Assembly (NCBI GenBank): GCA_019637755.1
Contig: JAHBVC010000001.1
Coordinates: forward strand, 1,082,480-1,146,479
Source of the DNA: Anaerolineales bacterium
Lineage (GTDB): Bacteria > Chloroflexota > Anaerolineae > Anaerolineales > UBA11579
Direction of reading: 5' to 3'
Length of the DNA: 64,000 nt
Positions 51,548-57,862 of this stretch are shown here, piece by piece; the stretch's first letter is position 1; every line of letters starts with the position of its first letter. A program made the translations under genes and the position numbers. The notes under the pieces are model-generated. The model was not told the origin of the DNA, did no database searches, and saw only the letters and a list, made by a program, of their open reading frames with translations.

Positions 51548-52831
51548 TTATGCTTGCATGAGCCGGGCAGCCTTGCGGCCAATCTCTACGGCAAAATTCG
51601 TGCCGCGATCCCAGGGGTAGACCTGGCTCATGCTGGCAAAGTACAAGCCGGGCATGGGCGTTGCAATCTCAGGGATATTGCGAGAGTGGTTCACCAGCGG
51701 TACCGGCTGGGCGTAATTGGTCTTATGCACCCACACCTTCTTGATCCAGCTGCGTTCAAAGGACGGATTGATGCGTTGGATGCCCGGCAGGAAGCATTCG
51801 AGCAATTGCTCATCACTGAGTGCAAAGTATTCGTGGCCTAGCTCCAGATAATCGCCACAATACAAGATGTGGTCACCGCCAAAGTGCTCGGGGGAGACAT
51901 AGTTGGTGTGCTCCACCAGCGCCAGGAACGGGAAGCCGGCGCTCTTGGGGATGTTGTACCAGTAGTAGCCCTGCGCCGAGAGCTGGCGGTCAATACTGAG
52001 CGTCATCACCACCGCGCCCATGCTCTTGAGATCGAGCAGACCGCGCAAATACTCCTGGCTGAGCTCGGGCGCCAGTTTAGCGAGCAGTTGTGGGGATGTG
52101 GTGACCAATACTTGATCAAACTGATGGGGCTTGCCGTTGACGCGCAGCTCCAGCTGGGCGCCAGCTTGCGTGACGCTCTCCACCGTGGCGCGCAGCTCAA
52201 AACCAACGCCGATCGCTTTTAGCTTTTTGGCAAATTGGTCAGCAAAAGCCTGGAAGCCGCCCTTATACGTGCCGAGCCGCGTGGTGCGCGCGTGCAAGCG
52301 CGCCCACAGCCAAGCCATATTGACCTGCTTTGCAAATGGGCCAAACTTGCCCTCGATGAGCGGCAGCCACATGCTTTCATACACGCGCGTGCCCGCCCAT
52401 TTGCGCATCCACGCGTCGACGGTGCTGCGCTCCAGCGGCTTCCAGTTGTTGGTGATGCGCAGGTACAGGCCCACCAGGCCAAAACGAATCTTGTCTAACC
52501 CCCAGCCCAGCCCAGGGTACAGCAGCGCGGCCGGGATCGAATCAAATGGATAGAACTTGCCGTTGTAATACATCACCGTGTATGGCCGCGGGAAGATGAC
52601 ATTCTCACTAAGGCCGAGCTCATCGATCAAGCCCAGCATGTGCGCATCGCTGGCAAACCAGTGATGGTAGAACTTTTCCAGGCTCCACTCCCAATGTGTC
52701 TCTTTGAAACCGGAGGCCAGGCCGCCAACATGGCCGGCCGCCTCAAAGATCGTTACCTGATGGCCAGCCCTGGCCAAGTCATACGCGGCGGCCATGCCGC
52801 CGAAGCCCGCGCCGACGATAGCGATCTTCAT
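51548..52831 (-). CDS. FAD-dependent oxidoreductase (amine oxidase/desaturase-like)
   Basis: A 427-residue flavoprotein. The dinucleotide motif KIAIVGAGFGGMAAAYDLARAG is at the N-terminus, followed by the FAD ribose Glu in IFEAAGHVGGLASGF. The C-terminus LYFASMSQVYPWDRGTNFAVEIGRKAA closes the FAD site. Related families include protoporphyrinogen oxidase, carotenoid desaturases and UDP-galactopyranose mutase; the substrate is not clear. The start MKIAIVG overlaps the flippase stop (ATGA), and GGAGAG is upstream. Coupling suggests a role with a lipid or glycolipid. Confidence 0.82.
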   Translation of the reverse strand: MKIAIVGAGFGGMAAAYDLARAGHQVTIFEAAGHVGGLASGFKETHWEWSLEKFYHHWFASDAHMLGLIDELGLSENVIFPRPYTVMYYNGKFYPFDSIPAALLYPGLGWGLDKIRFGLVGLYLRITNNWKPLERSTVDAWMRKWAGTRVYESMWLPLIEGKFGPFAKQVNMAWLWARLHARTTRLGTYKGGFQAFADQFAKKLKAIGVGFELRATVESVTQAGAQLELRVNGKPHQFDQVLVTTSPQLLAKLAPELSQEYLRGLLDLKSMGAVVMTLSIDRQLSAQGYYWYNIPKSAGFPFLALVEHTNYVSPEHFGGDHILYCGDYLELGHEYFALSDEQLLECFLPGIQRINPSFERSWIKKVWVHKTNYAQPVPLVNHSRNIPEIATPMPGLYFASMSQVYPWDRGTNFAVEIGRKAARLMQA

Positions 52832-53847
52832 GCGCTCTCCGTCGCGGGCACTTCGCCCCATTTGATGCCCTCTCTAGCCAGGTAATAGGCGCCCAGCAAG
52901 GTGATCGGCAGCCATAGCGCAATATGCAGCACAAAGGTATAGCTGGTGGCGACTTCTTTCGGCACGCCATACGCTTCGAGGATGGCAATGCCGGGCGCAT
53001 CAAAGGTGCCGATGTAGCCAGGCGCCGAGGGGATCGTGGTAGCCAGATTGACAACGCCGTTCATCAGCATGAGTGCAAAGAAGCTCACCTCAAAGTTAAA
53101 GGCGTGCATCACGAACCAATACTTGCCCGTCTCCAGCAGCCAGATCACCAATGAGCTGATGAACACCATGATGACTTCAACGGGCGAGCGCAGCGCTTCC
53201 AGCCCGCCGAGGAAGCGGTTGCCCACCTCCAACACGCGGCCACGGAAACGCGCCGGCACCAGCCGCGCGGTGAGCCAGGCCAGCAGGCGCTGGCTGGCGC
53301 TCGGAAACATCGCCGCCAGCAGGAAGACGGCCAGCGCGCCGACGAACAGCAGGCTCCCCCACACGGCAAGTTGTTGAATGCTGAGGCCGGCCACCAAGCC
53401 GCCGCCCATCTCGGCCAGCTCGCCAAGATTGACAAAGATAAACGCCAGCATGACCACGCCGTCAAAAATACGCTCGACGATGATGGTGGCGAGTGACGCA
53501 GATACGGCCACCCCTTCTTTGCGCTTAAGGATCACAGCGCGCAACACTTCGCCAGCGCGGGCGGGATAGACGTTGTTGCCCATGTAGCCGATGGCGACGA
53601 TGGGGAACATGGTGCGTGTGGGTACAGACTTCAGCGGGCGCAGCAAGTAATGCCAACGCCAAGCGCGCGCCCACACCGCCAGAAAATACACGCCGATACC
53701 CGGCAGTAGCCACACGTAGTTGGCCTGGCGCACCTGCTGCCAAAAGTCGCCAAAGTGCATGTTGCGCAGCACCAGATACAGGAACAGCACACTGATGCCG
53801 ATGCCCAGCCAGAATTGCCAACGAAATGTAGATTTTGCTTTGCTCAT
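52828..53847 (-). CDS. Flippase-like membrane protein (LPG synthase TM / UPF0104)
   Basis: A 339-residue protein with about eight membrane helices of the lysylphosphatidylglycerol-synthase TM family. Diagnostic blocks are ARAWRWHYLLRPL, AIGYMGNNVYPARAGEVLRA and ATIIVERIFDGVVMLAF. Relatives move lipids or act as lipid-modification partners. TAGAAT ends nine bases before the ATG at 53847, which could start a separate short-leader transcript. The FAD oxidoreductase is translationally coupled to it. Confidence 0.87.
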   Translation of the reverse strand: MSKAKSTFRWQFWLGIGISVLFLYLVLRNMHFGDFWQQVRQANYVWLLPGIGVYFLAVWARAWRWHYLLRPLKSVPTRTMFPIVAIGYMGNNVYPARAGEVLRAVILKRKEGVAVSASLATIIVERIFDGVVMLAFIFVNLGELAEMGGGLVAGLSIQQLAVWGSLLFVGALAVFLLAAMFPSASQRLLAWLTARLVPARFRGRVLEVGNRFLGGLEALRSPVEVIMVFISSLVIWLLETGKYWFVMHAFNFEVSFFALMLMNGVVNLATTIPSAPGYIGTFDAPGIAILEAYGVPKEVATSYTFVLHIALWLPITLLGAYYLAREGIKWGEVPATESA

Positions 53848-53872: not shown

Positions 53873-54556
53873 CTAGACCGGCGGCCAGGGCATGTAGCGC
53901 TCATCCTCGGGTGGCTGCGGGAAGTGGGGTGCGGCCAGCAGTGCCGCGGCGCGCTGGCGTAAGGCCTCCAGCTCGGCTGGGCTGAGGTAGGCGGCCAGCT
54001 GGCTGAGCAGCTGGCCGCCCGCGGCCAACGCGGGCTGCAACTGGCGCACGGGTTCCAGTAACTCTGCAGGGATCGGCTCCCCGGCAAAATCCCAAATCAC
54101 GGTGCGCAGCTTGGGCTCTTCGTGGAAACAGATACCGTGATCGATCAACCACAGATGCCCATCCTCCCCCAGCAGAACATGCCCACCCTTGCGGTCCGCA
54201 TTATTGGCGAGCAAATCAAACACGGCCGCTGGGCGCAGTTGCTGGCGCACAGCATCTTCGAATGTGAAGTAATGCAACTCAGGGTCATGAGCGACGCGCA
54301 ACTGCAAGGAGCCGGGGCCAAAGGGGCCATCGGCGCGCAGCACGGTGGGCGGAACCAGCGCCCAGCCCAGCGCCTCGCTGAGCAGGTAGGCAGCCACCTC
54401 GCGGCCCGCCAGCGTCTCTGGCGGGAAATCCCACAAGGGCTGCTCACCCTTCACCGGCTTGTAGACGGCTTCGAGCTCGGCGCCTACGCGCACCAGGAAG
54501 GTGTAGTTAGAGCCCCAGGTGAACTGGCCCTCCAGCGTCAGCTCCCCCGTCTGCAA
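53873..54556 (-). CDS. SCO1664-family kinase-like protein
   Basis: A 227-residue protein of the SCO1664 type, with a distant phosphatidylinositol-kinase/HipA-like look: GSNYTFLVRVG, AVYKPVKGE (candidate ATP Lys), GREVAAYLLSEALGW, DLLANNADRKGGHVLLG (catalytic-loop-like Asn/Asp) and LWLIDHGICFH (metal Asp). Catalytic activity is unproven. The start is uncertain: TTG at 54556 fits the family, CTG at 54574 has AGGAG upstream, and ATG at 54646 would overlap the DUF3090 gene by 64 bases. It is the third gene of a conserved cassette with DUF3090 and a histidine phosphatase. Confidence 0.75.
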   Translation of the reverse strand: MQTGELTLEGQFTWGSNYTFLVRVGAELEAVYKPVKGEQPLWDFPPETLAGREVAAYLLSEALGWALVPPTVLRADGPFGPGSLQLRVAHDPELHYFTFEDAVRQQLRPAAVFDLLANNADRKGGHVLLGEDGHLWLIDHGICFHEEPKLRTVIWDFAGEPIPAELLEPVRQLQPALAAGGQLLSQLAAYLSPAELEALRQRAAALLAAPHFPQPPEDERYMPWPPV

Positions 54557-54582
54557 GACCGATAAAACGTGCAGGCCCGCTC

Positions 54583-55110
54583 CTAATGCTTGTGGCCGTT
54601 CTTCTTTACACAGAAGTGACCCGCGGGGTCCATCGGCTCGCCGCATTGCGGGCAGGTGGGCCGGCCGCGCGAGGCGATCTCGATACCCCAGTTGGCCATG
54701 CTACGAATCTGCGAGCGCGTGCACCATAGGCGCGCGATGTAGAGATCGTCCTCGCTGGCATCCGGCGAATCCGGTGCCTCGCGCAACTCTACGGCCACCA
54801 GATCCTGCTCGGGGTCATAGCCCAGGCCAATCTCAGCGGCGCGAAACAGTGCGTCCACCGGCGGGTGAATGTGCATCAGGTCTTCGTCAAAATCAGCAGA
54901 GGCGTTGGGTAGGTCGGCATGCTGGGTGTTCAGCTCAGCCAGGAACTGCTCAATCGCCACGGCCAGGCTCTGCACCTGCACCTTCTCAACGATGGCGGCG
55001 ACGATGCGCTCTTCCTTCCAGGCTTGAATATAGAAGACGCGCTGGCCCGCCGGGCCAATTGCGTCGGTAGTGATATGGTCAACCGGGCGGAGTTCAATGG
55101 TTCTAGACAT
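54583..55110 (-). CDS. DUF3090-family protein
   Basis: A 175-residue protein. The N-terminal part (FYIQAWKEERIVAAIVEKVQVQSLA) and the mid-region FRAAEIGLGYDPEQDLVAVELRE match DUF3090/TIGR03847 as I recall it. The C-terminus carries a zinc-ribbon-like CPQCGEPMDPAGHFC with further His residues. Function is unknown. It lies between the histidine phosphatase and SCO1664-like genes, the order also seen near mycothiol genes in actinobacteria. Confidence 0.82.
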   Translation of the reverse strand: MSRTIELRPVDHITTDAIGPAGQRVFYIQAWKEERIVAAIVEKVQVQSLAVAIEQFLAELNTQHADLPNASADFDEDLMHIHPPVDALFRAAEIGLGYDPEQDLVAVELREAPDSPDASEDDLYIARLWCTRSQIRSMANWGIEIASRGRPTCPQCGEPMDPAGHFCVKKNGHKH

Positions 55111-55138
55111 GGCGCGCAGTATAGTCCTTAATCGAAGT

Positions 55139-55744
55139 TTAGTTCTCGGGTGCAGTCCAGTTCAAACGCTCGAGCATACTGCGGCCCTCATGCAGCACCA
55201 GCGTACTGACCGAAGCGGTGCTAATCTGCAAACGCTGGAACTGGTCGAGCGGCATGCCGGCATAGTGAGCAATGATCAGCTTGATCGGGTCAGCATGCAG
55301 TACGCAGGCAATCGTATCTTTGGGTTTGTGCATCGCACGCAACGCTTCGATCTCGGTTACCAGACGGGCTTGCTGCTCCAACATGCCTTCGCCGCCAGGG
55401 AAACGGAATACGGAGGGGCGGTTTTGCAGCACAGCCCAACGTTTGTCTTTCTGCAGCGTCTTGAGCAGCTTGCCTTCCCATTGGCCAATGTCGCTTTCCA
55501 ACAAACCCTTGCGCTTGACGATGGAGAGCTTGTTGGCGGCGGCCAGCGGCTGCGCGGTCTCGACCGCGCGCTCCAGCGGGCTGCTGTAGATGGCAGTGAG
55601 CTTGACGTGCTGCAGGCCAGCGGCCAGCGCCTGAGCCTGAGCTTTGCCGCGTGCATTCAGATGCACGCCGGGCAGGCGCCCGGCCAGGCGGCCTTTGGCT
55701 ACGTATTCATTCTCCCCATGGCGGATCAACAAAACAGTGGGCAT
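55139..55744 (-). CDS. Histidine phosphatase (MSMEG_4193-type)
   Basis: A 201-residue phosphoglycerate-mutase-like phosphatase. The catalytic His is in LLIRHGENEYV, the Arg/Glu partners are in YSSPLERAVETAQPLA and the second His is in VLHADPIKLIIAHY. It likely removes phosphate from a small molecule. GGAGG stands upstream of the ATG, three bases after the rarA stop. It leads the cassette with DUF3090 and the SCO1664-like gene. Confidence 0.86.
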   Translation of the reverse strand: MPTVLLIRHGENEYVAKGRLAGRLPGVHLNARGKAQAQALAAGLQHVKLTAIYSSPLERAVETAQPLAAANKLSIVKRKGLLESDIGQWEGKLLKTLQKDKRWAVLQNRPSVFRFPGGEGMLEQQARLVTEIEALRAMHKPKDTIACVLHADPIKLIIAHYAGMPLDQFQRLQISTASVSTLVLHEGRSMLERLNWTAPEN

Positions 55745-55747
55745 AGC

Positions 55748-57163
55748 TTAGTGGTTTCCTCCGGCTTTGTGGCGAGACTTCAATGTATCTGCCGTCTCTT
55801 TGCTAGGCGTGGGCACTTCTTCGCTGCGCGTGATGCCAAGCGCCTTACGCTGGGCTTCACGCCAACGCGCCAGCCGTTCTTTGACTTCAGCCTCGTACCC
55901 CTGGTCAGACGGGGTGTAGAAATACGTACCAAGCACACCCGTGGGCAAGTATTGCTGCGGGGCAAAATGGTCAGGCGCATCATGCGGGTAGACGTAGCCC
56001 TGGCCGTGGCCAAGAGCTTTGCCATCGCGGTTTTTATCTTTGAGCGGGTCGGGCACTTCCACCATGCCATCGGCCTCGATCTTCTGATAGGCCGAGAAAT
56101 AGCCCAAGCTGCTGTTGGACTTGGGCGCGGTGGAGAGGTAGATCACCGCGTGCACGAGCGGGAAGATGCCCTCAGGCAAGCCGATGTAATCGAAGGCCTG
56201 AGCGGCGGCGTTGGCCACCACCATACCCATCGGGTCACCCATGCCAATATCCTCGCCGGCCAAAATCAGCAAACGGCGAAAGATGAAGCGCGGGTCCTCG
56301 CCTGCGTAGAGCATCTTGGCCAGCCAATAGAGCGCCGCGTCGGGGTCGGAACCGCGCACAGACTTGATGAAGGCAGAGATGGTGTCATAGTGAGCGTCGC
56401 CGTCTTTGTCGTATAAGACAGCGCGGCGCTGGATCGACTCTTGTGCCACGGCGAGTGTGACGTGAACGACACCATCCACGGCAGGGGTGGATTCCACCGC
56501 TAGTTCCAGCGCGTTGAGCGCATTGCGCGCGTCACCGCCGGCAACATGGATCAGGTGCTGCGCCGCCTCCTCATCAAACATGACTTTGCGCGTGCCGTAG
56601 CCGCGCTCAGGGTCTTGCAGTGCCTGTTCCAGCACGCGGCGCACATCCTCATCGGAGAGGGGGCGCAGTTGGAAGACGCGCGAGCGCGAAACCAGCGCCC
56701 CGTTGACCTCAAAGTAGGGATTCTCGGTGGTGGCGCCGATCAGCGTGATCGTGCCGTTCTCGACATGCGGCAGCAGGGCATCTTGCTGGGCTTTGTTCCA
56801 GCGATGCACCTCATCCACAAATAGGATCGTACGAACACTATGCAAACGGCGGCGTTCGCGCGCTTCTTCGATAACCGCTACCAAATCGGCCTTGCCAGTC
56901 ATCACCGCTGAGAGGGTAACGAAGTACGACTGGGTGTGGTTGGCGATCACCATCGCCAACGTGGTCTTGCCCGAGCCTGGCGGCCCCCACAGCAGAATCG
57001 AGGAGAACAGCCGGTCCGCGGCGATGGCGCGGCGCAGCAGCCGCCCCTCACCCAAGATGTCATCCTGGCCGATGTACTCGTCCAGATTGCGTGGGCGCAT
57101 ACGGGCAGCCAGCGGACTTTCGCTAGCTAGGCGCTCCTTGAGCGCGTGGTCGAACAAATCCAT
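55748..57163 (-). CDS. rarA: Replication-associated recombination protein A (RarA/MgsA)
   Basis: A 471-residue AAA+ ATPase acting at stalled replication forks. N-terminal RPRNLDEYIGQDDILG, Walker A WGPPGSGKTTLA, Walker B TILFVDEVHRWNKAQQDALLPHVE, sensor 1 IGATTENPYFEVN and the C-terminal tetramerisation part with ILAGEDIGMGDP are all standard. ATG at 57163 (MDLFDHALKERL). TACAAT (minus strand, 57179-57174) ends ten bases before it. It heads the minus-strand run that continues into the phosphatase cassette. Confidence 0.95.
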   Translation of the reverse strand: MDLFDHALKERLASESPLAARMRPRNLDEYIGQDDILGEGRLLRRAIAADRLFSSILLWGPPGSGKTTLAMVIANHTQSYFVTLSAVMTGKADLVAVIEEARERRRLHSVRTILFVDEVHRWNKAQQDALLPHVENGTITLIGATTENPYFEVNGALVSRSRVFQLRPLSDEDVRRVLEQALQDPERGYGTRKVMFDEEAAQHLIHVAGGDARNALNALELAVESTPAVDGVVHVTLAVAQESIQRRAVLYDKDGDAHYDTISAFIKSVRGSDPDAALYWLAKMLYAGEDPRFIFRRLLILAGEDIGMGDPMGMVVANAAAQAFDYIGLPEGIFPLVHAVIYLSTAPKSNSSLGYFSAYQKIEADGMVEVPDPLKDKNRDGKALGHGQGYVYPHDAPDHFAPQQYLPTGVLGTYFYTPSDQGYEAEVKERLARWREAQRKALGITRSEEVPTPSKETADTLKSRHKAGGNH

Positions 57164-57173
57164 AAGTAGAACG

Positions 57174-57179
57174 ATTGTA
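57174..57179 (-). promoter_or_regulatory. -10-like TACAAT of rarA
   Basis: On the minus strand TACAAT lies ten bases before the rarA start, with no ribosome binding site in the gap. Confidence 0.45.
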
Positions 57180-57232
57180 CTGCACCGCTCTCGCCCCACC
57201 CACACAAGAAGGTTGTTTAATGCGGGCTACGC

Positions 57233-57263: not shown

Positions 57264-57521
57264 ATGCCCAAACATAAAGTACAACGCGTACAAATTCTGC
57301 TGGAACCACGCCAGCAAGCCTATTTGGCACGAGTTTCCAAGAAAAGCGGGCGCAGTATCTCTGCCCTGCTGCGCGAACTGGTGGACGAGAAAATGAATGC
57401 CAGTAGCGATGCGAGCCTGATGCGCGCGGCACGTGAGTTACAAGGCATCTACCAGACCGACAATGAATTGAACGCCTTCAGCAGCCTGGATGCAGCGGAT
57501 TGGGAAGACCGCTCCGAATGA
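57264..57521 (+). CDS. Ribbon-helix-helix antitoxin
   Basis: An 85-residue protein. Residues about 8-45 (VQILLEPRQQAYLARVSKKSGRSISALLRELVDEKM) form a CopG/Arc-type ribbon-helix-helix DNA-binding domain. The acidic C-terminus (ELNAFSSLDAADWEDRSE) is suited to bind and neutralise the toxin. It overlaps the toxin gene by ATGA and is preceded by a palindromic operator. Confidence 0.85.
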   Translation: MPKHKVQRVQILLEPRQQAYLARVSKKSGRSISALLRELVDEKMNASSDASLMRAARELQGIYQTDNELNAFSSLDAADWEDRSE

Positions 57522-57862
57522 GCCTGCAAAGGGGTGAAGTATGGCTGGTGAATCTGGACCCAGTGATCGGGTCTGAGCTTCGCAAAACCCGGCCTGCAGT
57601 CATCGTAAGCCGGAATGCGATTGGTGCCTTGCCCCTACGCGTGGTCGTGCCACTCACCACCTGGCAGGAGCGCTTCACTCAAGCGGTGTGGCTGGTACCT
57701 ATACAGGCTGGGCCTGGTAAAGGGCTCAAGCAAAAATCAGCCGCAGACACCGTACAAGTGCGCTCCGTGAGCGAAAAACGCCTGGTCAAACGCTTGGGGA
57801 AACTCCCCAACGAAGACATGCAACGCATTGCCGCCGCTCTGACAATTGTCTTGCAGCTTTAG
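57518..57862 (+). CDS. MazF/PemK-type endoribonuclease toxin
   Basis: A 114-residue toxin. LQRGEVWLVNLDPVIGSELRKTRPAVIVS is the family signature with the conserved Arg and Gly of the active-site loops; VVVPLTTW and VQVRSVSEKRLVKRLGKL complete the fold. Such proteins cut mRNA at short motifs and arrest growth. Start MSLQRGEV at 57518 inside the antitoxin stop. Its partner is of ribbon-helix-helix rather than AbrB type. Confidence 0.9.
   Translation: MSLQRGEVWLVNLDPVIGSELRKTRPAVIVSRNAIGALPLRVVVPLTTWQERFTQAVWLVPIQAGPGKGLKQKSAADTVQVRSVSEKRLVKRLGKLPNEDMQRIAAALTIVLQL

Follow-up and report, generated by a model that had tools for sequence, protein, structure and literature searches.

The closest described relatives of the genes reported here are the families SCO1664 (TIGR03843), DUF3090 (TIGR03847) and MSMEG_4193 (TIGR03848), whose near-consecutive accessions suggest, we presume, that the model builders had already seen the trio. 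Rv2135c is taken here to be a relative of the MSMEG_4193-type phosphatase, and the tags Rv2134c, MSMEG_4192 and MSMEG_4192c presumably all denote the DUF3090 gene. Rv2135c is described as a tetrameric acid phosphatase that is active on pNPP, has no phosphoglycerate mutase activity, and is tied to membrane fractions and to the undecaprenyl-pyrophosphate phosphatase Rv2136c (PMC3866925). In two transposon screens, Rv2134c is rifampicin-sensitising in BCG (log2 -1.42; PMC11329110) and MSMEG_4192c is enriched under dibucaine (+1.49; PMC10127668), and a ClpC1 interactome study lists MSMEG_4192 (PMC10433963). A 2013 review lists SCO1664 as an actinobacterial signature protein and terms it and another gene 'invariably closely linked' to mycothiol genes (PMC4255298). 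Our literature search, in the passages seen, turned up no study of the function of either SCO1664 or DUF3090.

The locus described here comes from an Anaerolineales (Chloroflexota) genome. The window, that is, the whole 64,000-nucleotide stretch that was analysed, contains the following features of interest:

52828..53847, minus strand: flippase-like membrane protein (TIGR00374; PF03706, 187.2 bits), downstream of the trio and outside the module
53873..54556, minus strand: SCO1664-family protein, a predicted PI4K-II/Fam20/HipA-type kinase (TIGR03843 and structural model); TTG start assumed, ORF open to 54646
54134..54142, minus strand: DHG of SCO1664, a DFG-like metal-binding motif with the invariant D139
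54179..54205, minus strand: catalytic loop of SCO1664 in the alignment, NNADRKGGH, with His where relatives have Asn or Glu
54398..54400, minus strand: putative helix-C Glu53 of SCO1664, invariant
54458..54460, minus strand: putative ATP-binding Lys33 of SCO1664 (YKP motif), invariant
54583..55110, minus strand: DUF3090 protein (PF11290, TIGR03847), with a probable PUR/Whirly-like fold in the model and a zinc ribbon at the C-terminus
54610..54654, minus strand: zinc ribbon of DUF3090 in the sequence, C-x2-C-x8-H-x-C, residues 153-167
55139..55744, minus strand: histidine phosphatase, MSMEG_4193/Rv2135c-like (PF00300, TIGR03848), with RHG and the second His kept in the alignment
55748..57205, minus strand: rarA (MgsA_C, 198.5 bits), the immediate upstream neighbour, lineage-specific

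The minus-strand order is rarA, histidine phosphatase, DUF3090, SCO1664, flippase-like gene and FAD oxidoreductase. The gaps from rarA to the flippase-like gene are 3, 28, about 26 and 25 bp, so this run is likely to form a single transcript. The first-pass annotation had placed the three families at these positions and in this order, and Pfam and NCBIfam profile searches agree; its placement of the trio behind rarA is likewise correct, rarA ending directly before the phosphatase start. The phosphatase scores 166.8 bits with His_Phos_1 (PF00300, cut-off 21.7); its best NCBIfam model is TIGR03848, but the score of 191.8 bits is 12 below the curated 203.85, and the protein is therefore labelled 'MSMEG_4193-like'. 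DUF3090 exceeds the cut-offs of both PF11290 (152.5 bits versus 27) and TIGR03847 (140.6 versus 117.25), as does SCO1664 that of TIGR03843 (282.1-282.3 bits versus 172.4). The stop of SCO1664 lies at 53873, and its listed ORF start, 54646, falls inside DUF3090; judged from the sequence, translation more plausibly begins at the TTG at 54556 or at a CTG further upstream, close to an AGGAG. The flippase-like and FAD-dependent oxidoreductase genes that follow the trio (51548-53847, minus strand) recur in the same arrangement in another locus, L037. On the other flank, a PemK/MazF-type toxin gene (57500-57862, plus strand, 94.2 bits) is divergent from rarA and is preceded by a small antitoxin-looking ORF, the pair spanning 57264-57862 on the plus strand.

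Bacterial genomes were scanned with an SCO1664 alignment, and the window plus the best 80 of the 593 resulting stretches were compared as a set of 81 loci, which is mostly chloroflexotal, leans to the relatives of the window and includes many loci cut by contig ends. In this set (window and best 80 of 593), 80 loci contain DUF3090 and 51 the phosphatase; in 75, DUF3090 precedes SCO1664 on the same strand by no more than 1 kb, and the complete adjacent order of phosphatase, DUF3090 and SCO1664 is seen in 46 of the 81. Intergenic gaps in trio loci are mostly 30 bp or less, and overlaps are frequent. Actinobacterial loci have the full order in 39 of 40 cases, the remaining contig stopping right after DUF3090. 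A third phylum, that of L111 (Candidatus Rokuibacteriota), has SCO1664 over the cut-off in 27 of 60 genomes and the full order in 18 of 20 loci; the two exceptions are a locus with DUF3090 and phosphatase swapped and one without a phosphatase match. The conserved linkage expected at first reading is borne out by this survey of further loci, far above chance. The label 'actinobacterial-type' given to the cassette at the same time proved too narrow: the trio is also native to Chloroflexota and to the third phylum.

Genome-wide counts point the same way. Among 178 genomes of Actinomycetota, SCO1664 is found in 80 (81 matches, 77 of them over the cut-off, with G332 excluded at 18.9 bits), DUF3090 in 81, the phosphatase in 80 and the trio in 79. 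A partial trio occurs in just two: in one, the contig breaks off 11 bp past DUF3090, which accounts for the absence of SCO1664, and in the other DUF3090 begins at contig base 17, so that the missing phosphatase may have been cut off. Among 151 Chloroflexota genomes, SCO1664 is present in 84 (including two below the cut-off), DUF3090 in 99 and both in 79 (odds ratio 37); the Fisher p-values for such associations ignore kinship between genomes, which are not independent, and so overstate the association and are indicative only. A same-type phosphatase, defined at the observed score gap as at least 183 bits in actinobacteria and at least 209 bits in Chloroflexota, is present in 40 of the 151, and the whole trio in 37. 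Genomes of the same order as the window often do have the phosphatase, but encode it at another place, for example in G005.

Several lineages speak against a strict module. Of the 151 Chloroflexota genomes, 20 have DUF3090 but not SCO1664, and the stretches around DUF3090 in these genomes contain no match to SCO1664 or to a same-type phosphatase; conversely, 47 of the 84 SCO1664-bearing Chloroflexota genomes have no same-type phosphatase. The Corynebacterium glutamicum control has SCO1664 and no DUF3090 match. The actinobacterial genome G167 carries two SCO1664 copies (C17:152942-154262 and C17:397404-399439), each behind a phosphatase, one of the pairs without an intervening DUF3090 match; its mshC is located elsewhere. 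In 9 of the 20 Chloroflexota loci with DUF3090 and no SCO1664, a same-strand ORF upstream resembles 2-hydroxyacid dehydrogenases (L128, L132-L134, L142-L146; named by reading the sequence).

The neighbours of the trio are less constant. rarA was considered as a functional link and set aside, since it lies upstream of the trio in only 11 of the 81 loci (window and best 80 of 593), and it is regarded as a neighbour specific to certain lineages. Neighbour clustering gave no conserved fourth gene, the neighbours varying by lineage in actinobacteria and the third phylum; homoserine-dehydrogenase-like ORFs, named from sequence, follow the trio in 21 of the 81 (window and best 80 of 593). A role in anti-phage defence was also discarded, as PADLOC gave just one weak match of 14.5 bits. 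In a FastTree phylogeny of 140 SCO1664 sequences, the 72 Chloroflexota copies are all placed on the same side, with a support of only 0.38, and the third-phylum sequences group with 15 actinobacterial copies (support 0.94), which suggests transfer between phyla. The evidence that the trio is a real conserved module is solid.

The early description of SCO1664 as 'kinase-like' is backed by its predicted fold and motifs. The AlphaFold2 model (pLDDT 96.7, pTM 0.93) has PI4K-II beta as its closest solved fold (Z 19.3 over 214 residues at 3.1 A), followed by Fam20 (Z 14.8), CtkA (14.3) and HipA (10.9), and Foldseek concurs (E 1.6e-7). By sequence, an SCO1664 profile search reached PI4K-II beta (2e-4) and Fam20A (6e-4); a sequence-only search of solved structures with the single SCO1664 and DUF3090 proteins gave no match. 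With PF00454 the window protein scores 24.4 bits, under the cut-off of 27.1; at E <= 0.01 this profile detects 76 of 81 relatives. The structural model leads to the prediction that SCO1664 is a minimal member of the PI4K-II/Fam20/HipA kinase group. K33, E53, D121, R122, K123, H126 and D139 are invariant in all 81 copies. In the alignments, DRGNDN of PI4K-II and DRHHYE of Fam20A stand opposite the SCO1664 loop, DRKggH; five residues past the catalytic Asp, all 81 SCO1664 copies have His, PI4K-II has Asn and Fam20A has Glu. This invariant His could mean an inactive or an unusual kinase, and a preference for a metal other than Mg is a natural guess from it.

The active-site residues of the phosphatase are intact: R8, H9, R59 and H150 are found in all 49 aligned copies and E83 in 48, and it has the RHG/RHA motif and second catalytic His of branch 1 of the histidine phosphatase superfamily.

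For DUF3090, the model (pLDDT 92.9) is confident over about residues 1-150. A Foldseek search with it gave no match at E <= 0.001. After re-alignment of the Foldseek list, five Pur-alpha entries came out on top (Z 8.6-9.1 over about 110 residues at 3.0-3.5 A), followed by two function-unassigned proteins (Z 6.1), Whirly (5.5-4.9), MRP1/2 (4.9) and other folds at 4.3 or less. The predicted elements of DUF3090 run bbbba and then bbba, in keeping with the bbbba described for the PUR repeats of Pur-alpha (PMC2954813). A PUR/Whirly-like fold is therefore probable as far as the model goes, with the caution that middling Z scores can reflect a common arrangement. In an internal-repeat test the two halves aligned at 50% probability and one unrelated control at 37%. 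PurA is absent from the Pfam families listed for DUF3090 (25 of the 54 matched), and a sequence link to Pur-alpha was rejected: when solved structures were searched with a profile, every match was either zinc-ribbon-like or unrelated. The zinc-ribbon partner named in the first-pass annotation is indeed present, the motif being complete in 61 of 80 aligned copies. The conserved polar residues are R24, Q29, E42, K43, Q45, R132, Q134, R150 and N171, and no Ser or Thr is invariant across all aligned copies as an obvious phospho-acceptor.

Two gene fusions bear on the partner of DUF3090. In L114 (Candidatus Aquidulcis sp.), a 393-residue ORF comprises the phosphatase (1-218) and a full DUF3090 (206-391), with an internal ATG that makes separate translation possible. 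In L104, from an Anaerolineae MAG, a 351-residue ORF joins the phosphatase to a shortened DUF3090-like domain, and a separate DUF3090 comes after it. Because these are two different joined arrangements, they support contact between phosphatase and DUF3090. The pI values in the window (9.89 for the phosphatase, 4.89 for DUF3090 and 4.82 for SCO1664) give the two presumed partners opposite charges, which would fit such contact.

We consider it moderately probable that the trio is a stand-alone reversible-phosphorylation module, wider than mycothiol, with DUF3090 as the partner of the phosphatase. SCO1664, as a minimal kinase, would phosphorylate a substrate at the expense of ATP, the MSMEG_4193-like phosphatase would take the phosphate off again, and DUF3090 would bind the phosphatase and bring it to its target. 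The substrate may be a protein, which we favour since HipA, CtkA and Fam20C phosphorylate proteins, or possibly a lipid or sugar. A phosphorylation-based pathway had been proposed at first reading; it stands as the best guess, and the pathway itself stays an inference. The kinase-phosphatase pair with DUF3090 at the side of the phosphatase is the simplest reading, against which weigh the lineages with partial sets and the unusual catalytic loop of SCO1664.

An unlikely alternative is phosphorylation of a lipid or polyprenol, in which SCO1664 would be a genuine lipid kinase like PI4K and the phosphatase would act on the phospholipid. PI4K-II is the closest solved fold, the flippase-like gene follows the trio in the window, six mycothiol-type loci carry an upstream gene that reads like uppP in sequence, and Rv2135c has the link to membrane fractions and Rv2136c noted above. 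However, the uppP-like gene is found in none of 30 non-mycothiol loci sampled, and the flippase is shared by only 3 of the 81 loci (window and best 80 of 593). PI4K-II carries a Cys-rich palmitoylation insert; SCO1664 is short (227 aa), such an insert was not seen on inspection of its sequence, and Fam20, CtkA and HipA also match most of its model.

Less probable still is a pseudokinase or scaffold role for SCO1664, which would leave the phosphatase as the sole enzyme, steered by DUF3090 and SCO1664. The invariant change from Asn to His in the loop and the fusion of DUF3090 to the phosphatase would suit this arrangement, but all 81 copies retain K33, E53 and the Asp residues of both the catalytic loop and the DHG motif, a constancy unexpected in a dead kinase. 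Moreover, Fam20A aligns with Glu at the position of the His, and the Fam20 group has active members; the 47 Chloroflexota genomes that retain SCO1664 without a same-type phosphatase also count against it.

We regard as very improbable the idea that DUF3090 is a new PUR-domain binder of ssRNA or ssDNA and that the module reversibly phosphorylates nucleic acid or bound proteins, with SCO1664 as the kinase, the phosphatase as the eraser and the His loop as a new metal-binding variant. TkArkI, a kinase-fold RNA kinase that acts on tRNA, is among the fold matches of SCO1664 by its solved structure. The DUF3090 family is acidic, however, with a median pI of 5.0 and none of 80 members above 8, and its composition therefore argues against unspecific nucleic-acid binding.

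At first reading, the order of the three genes had been likened to that before mshC in actinobacteria. That likeness is real. Of the 178 actinobacterial genomes, 15 have mshC over the cut-off, and in 14 of these mshC follows SCO1664 at a distance of 32-1605 bp; the proposed co-occurrence holds in one direction, all 15 having SCO1664. In the other direction it fails: 65 of the 80 SCO1664-bearing actinobacterial genomes have no mshC over the cut-off, so mshC is a neighbour in a subset and not the general context. None of the 151 Chloroflexota genomes reaches the mshC cut-off, and the absence of mycothiol genes noted at first holds for the genome of the window, where the best matches to mshC and mshA score 314 bits (cut-off 485.1) and 350.2 bits (cut-off 462.5). 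The 30 non-mycothiol actinobacterial loci examined share no constant fourth gene, and in the tree 8 of 10 mycothiol-linked SCO1664 copies cluster together (support 0.90), nested within a broader actinobacterial clade. That the trio serves mycothiol metabolism, regulating or extending synthesis beside mshC, therefore has very little probability, and as a general role it is rejected in view of the SCO1664 genomes without mshC and of the neighbourhood data. As SCO1664 occurs in genomes without mshC and outside actinobacteria, the invariable mycothiol linkage and the signature status given in the 2013 review do not hold in the wider sample (PMC4255298). The independence of the trio from mycothiol is firmly shown.

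MshC-like cysteinyl ligases, scoring about 360-446 bits with TIGR03447 (cut-off 485), occur in many Chloroflexota and some actinobacterial genomes (for example L032 1504-2694 and L034 1480-2742), often alongside a weaker cysS-like match; for two of them the NCBIfam mshC and cysS scores are about equal. SCO1664 is also present in 19 of 21 actinobacterial genomes with such a ligase, at a different spot in those inspected.

Three families without an assigned cellular role thus travel together over three phyla, in Streptomyces and, as we assume, in Mycobacterium too. Uncoupling them from mycothiol takes away the usual guess at their role. The fusion to the phosphatase, the PUR-like fold predicted for DUF3090 and the changed loop of SCO1664 are each a directly testable handle, and the reversible-phosphorylation reading, if true, would describe a widespread bacterial phosphorylation switch overlooked for want of one.

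Compared with known systems, SCO1664 has in common with PI4K-II, Fam20, CtkA and HipA its predicted fold (about 180-215 residues matched, with Z about 10-19) and the KP...E, DR and D-x-G motifs; the window protein differs from them in its length of 227 residues, its loop His and its score below the PF00454 cut-off. DUF3090 resembles Pur-alpha and Whirly in its predicted strand-helix order and top structural matches, and differs in its acidity, its extra zinc ribbon and the undetected sequence similarity. The phosphatase has RHG where Rv2135c has RHA; the alignment contains 26 copies with Gly and 23 with Ala at this position. Compared with the TIGR03843/TIGR03847/TIGR03848 trio of the Rv2133c-Rv2135c and SCO1664 regions, the trio in the window lacks an adjacent mshC or uppP and has rarA upstream, a Chloroflexota-type host and a phosphatase just under the TIGR03848 cut-off, whereas the families, their order and their orientation are the same.
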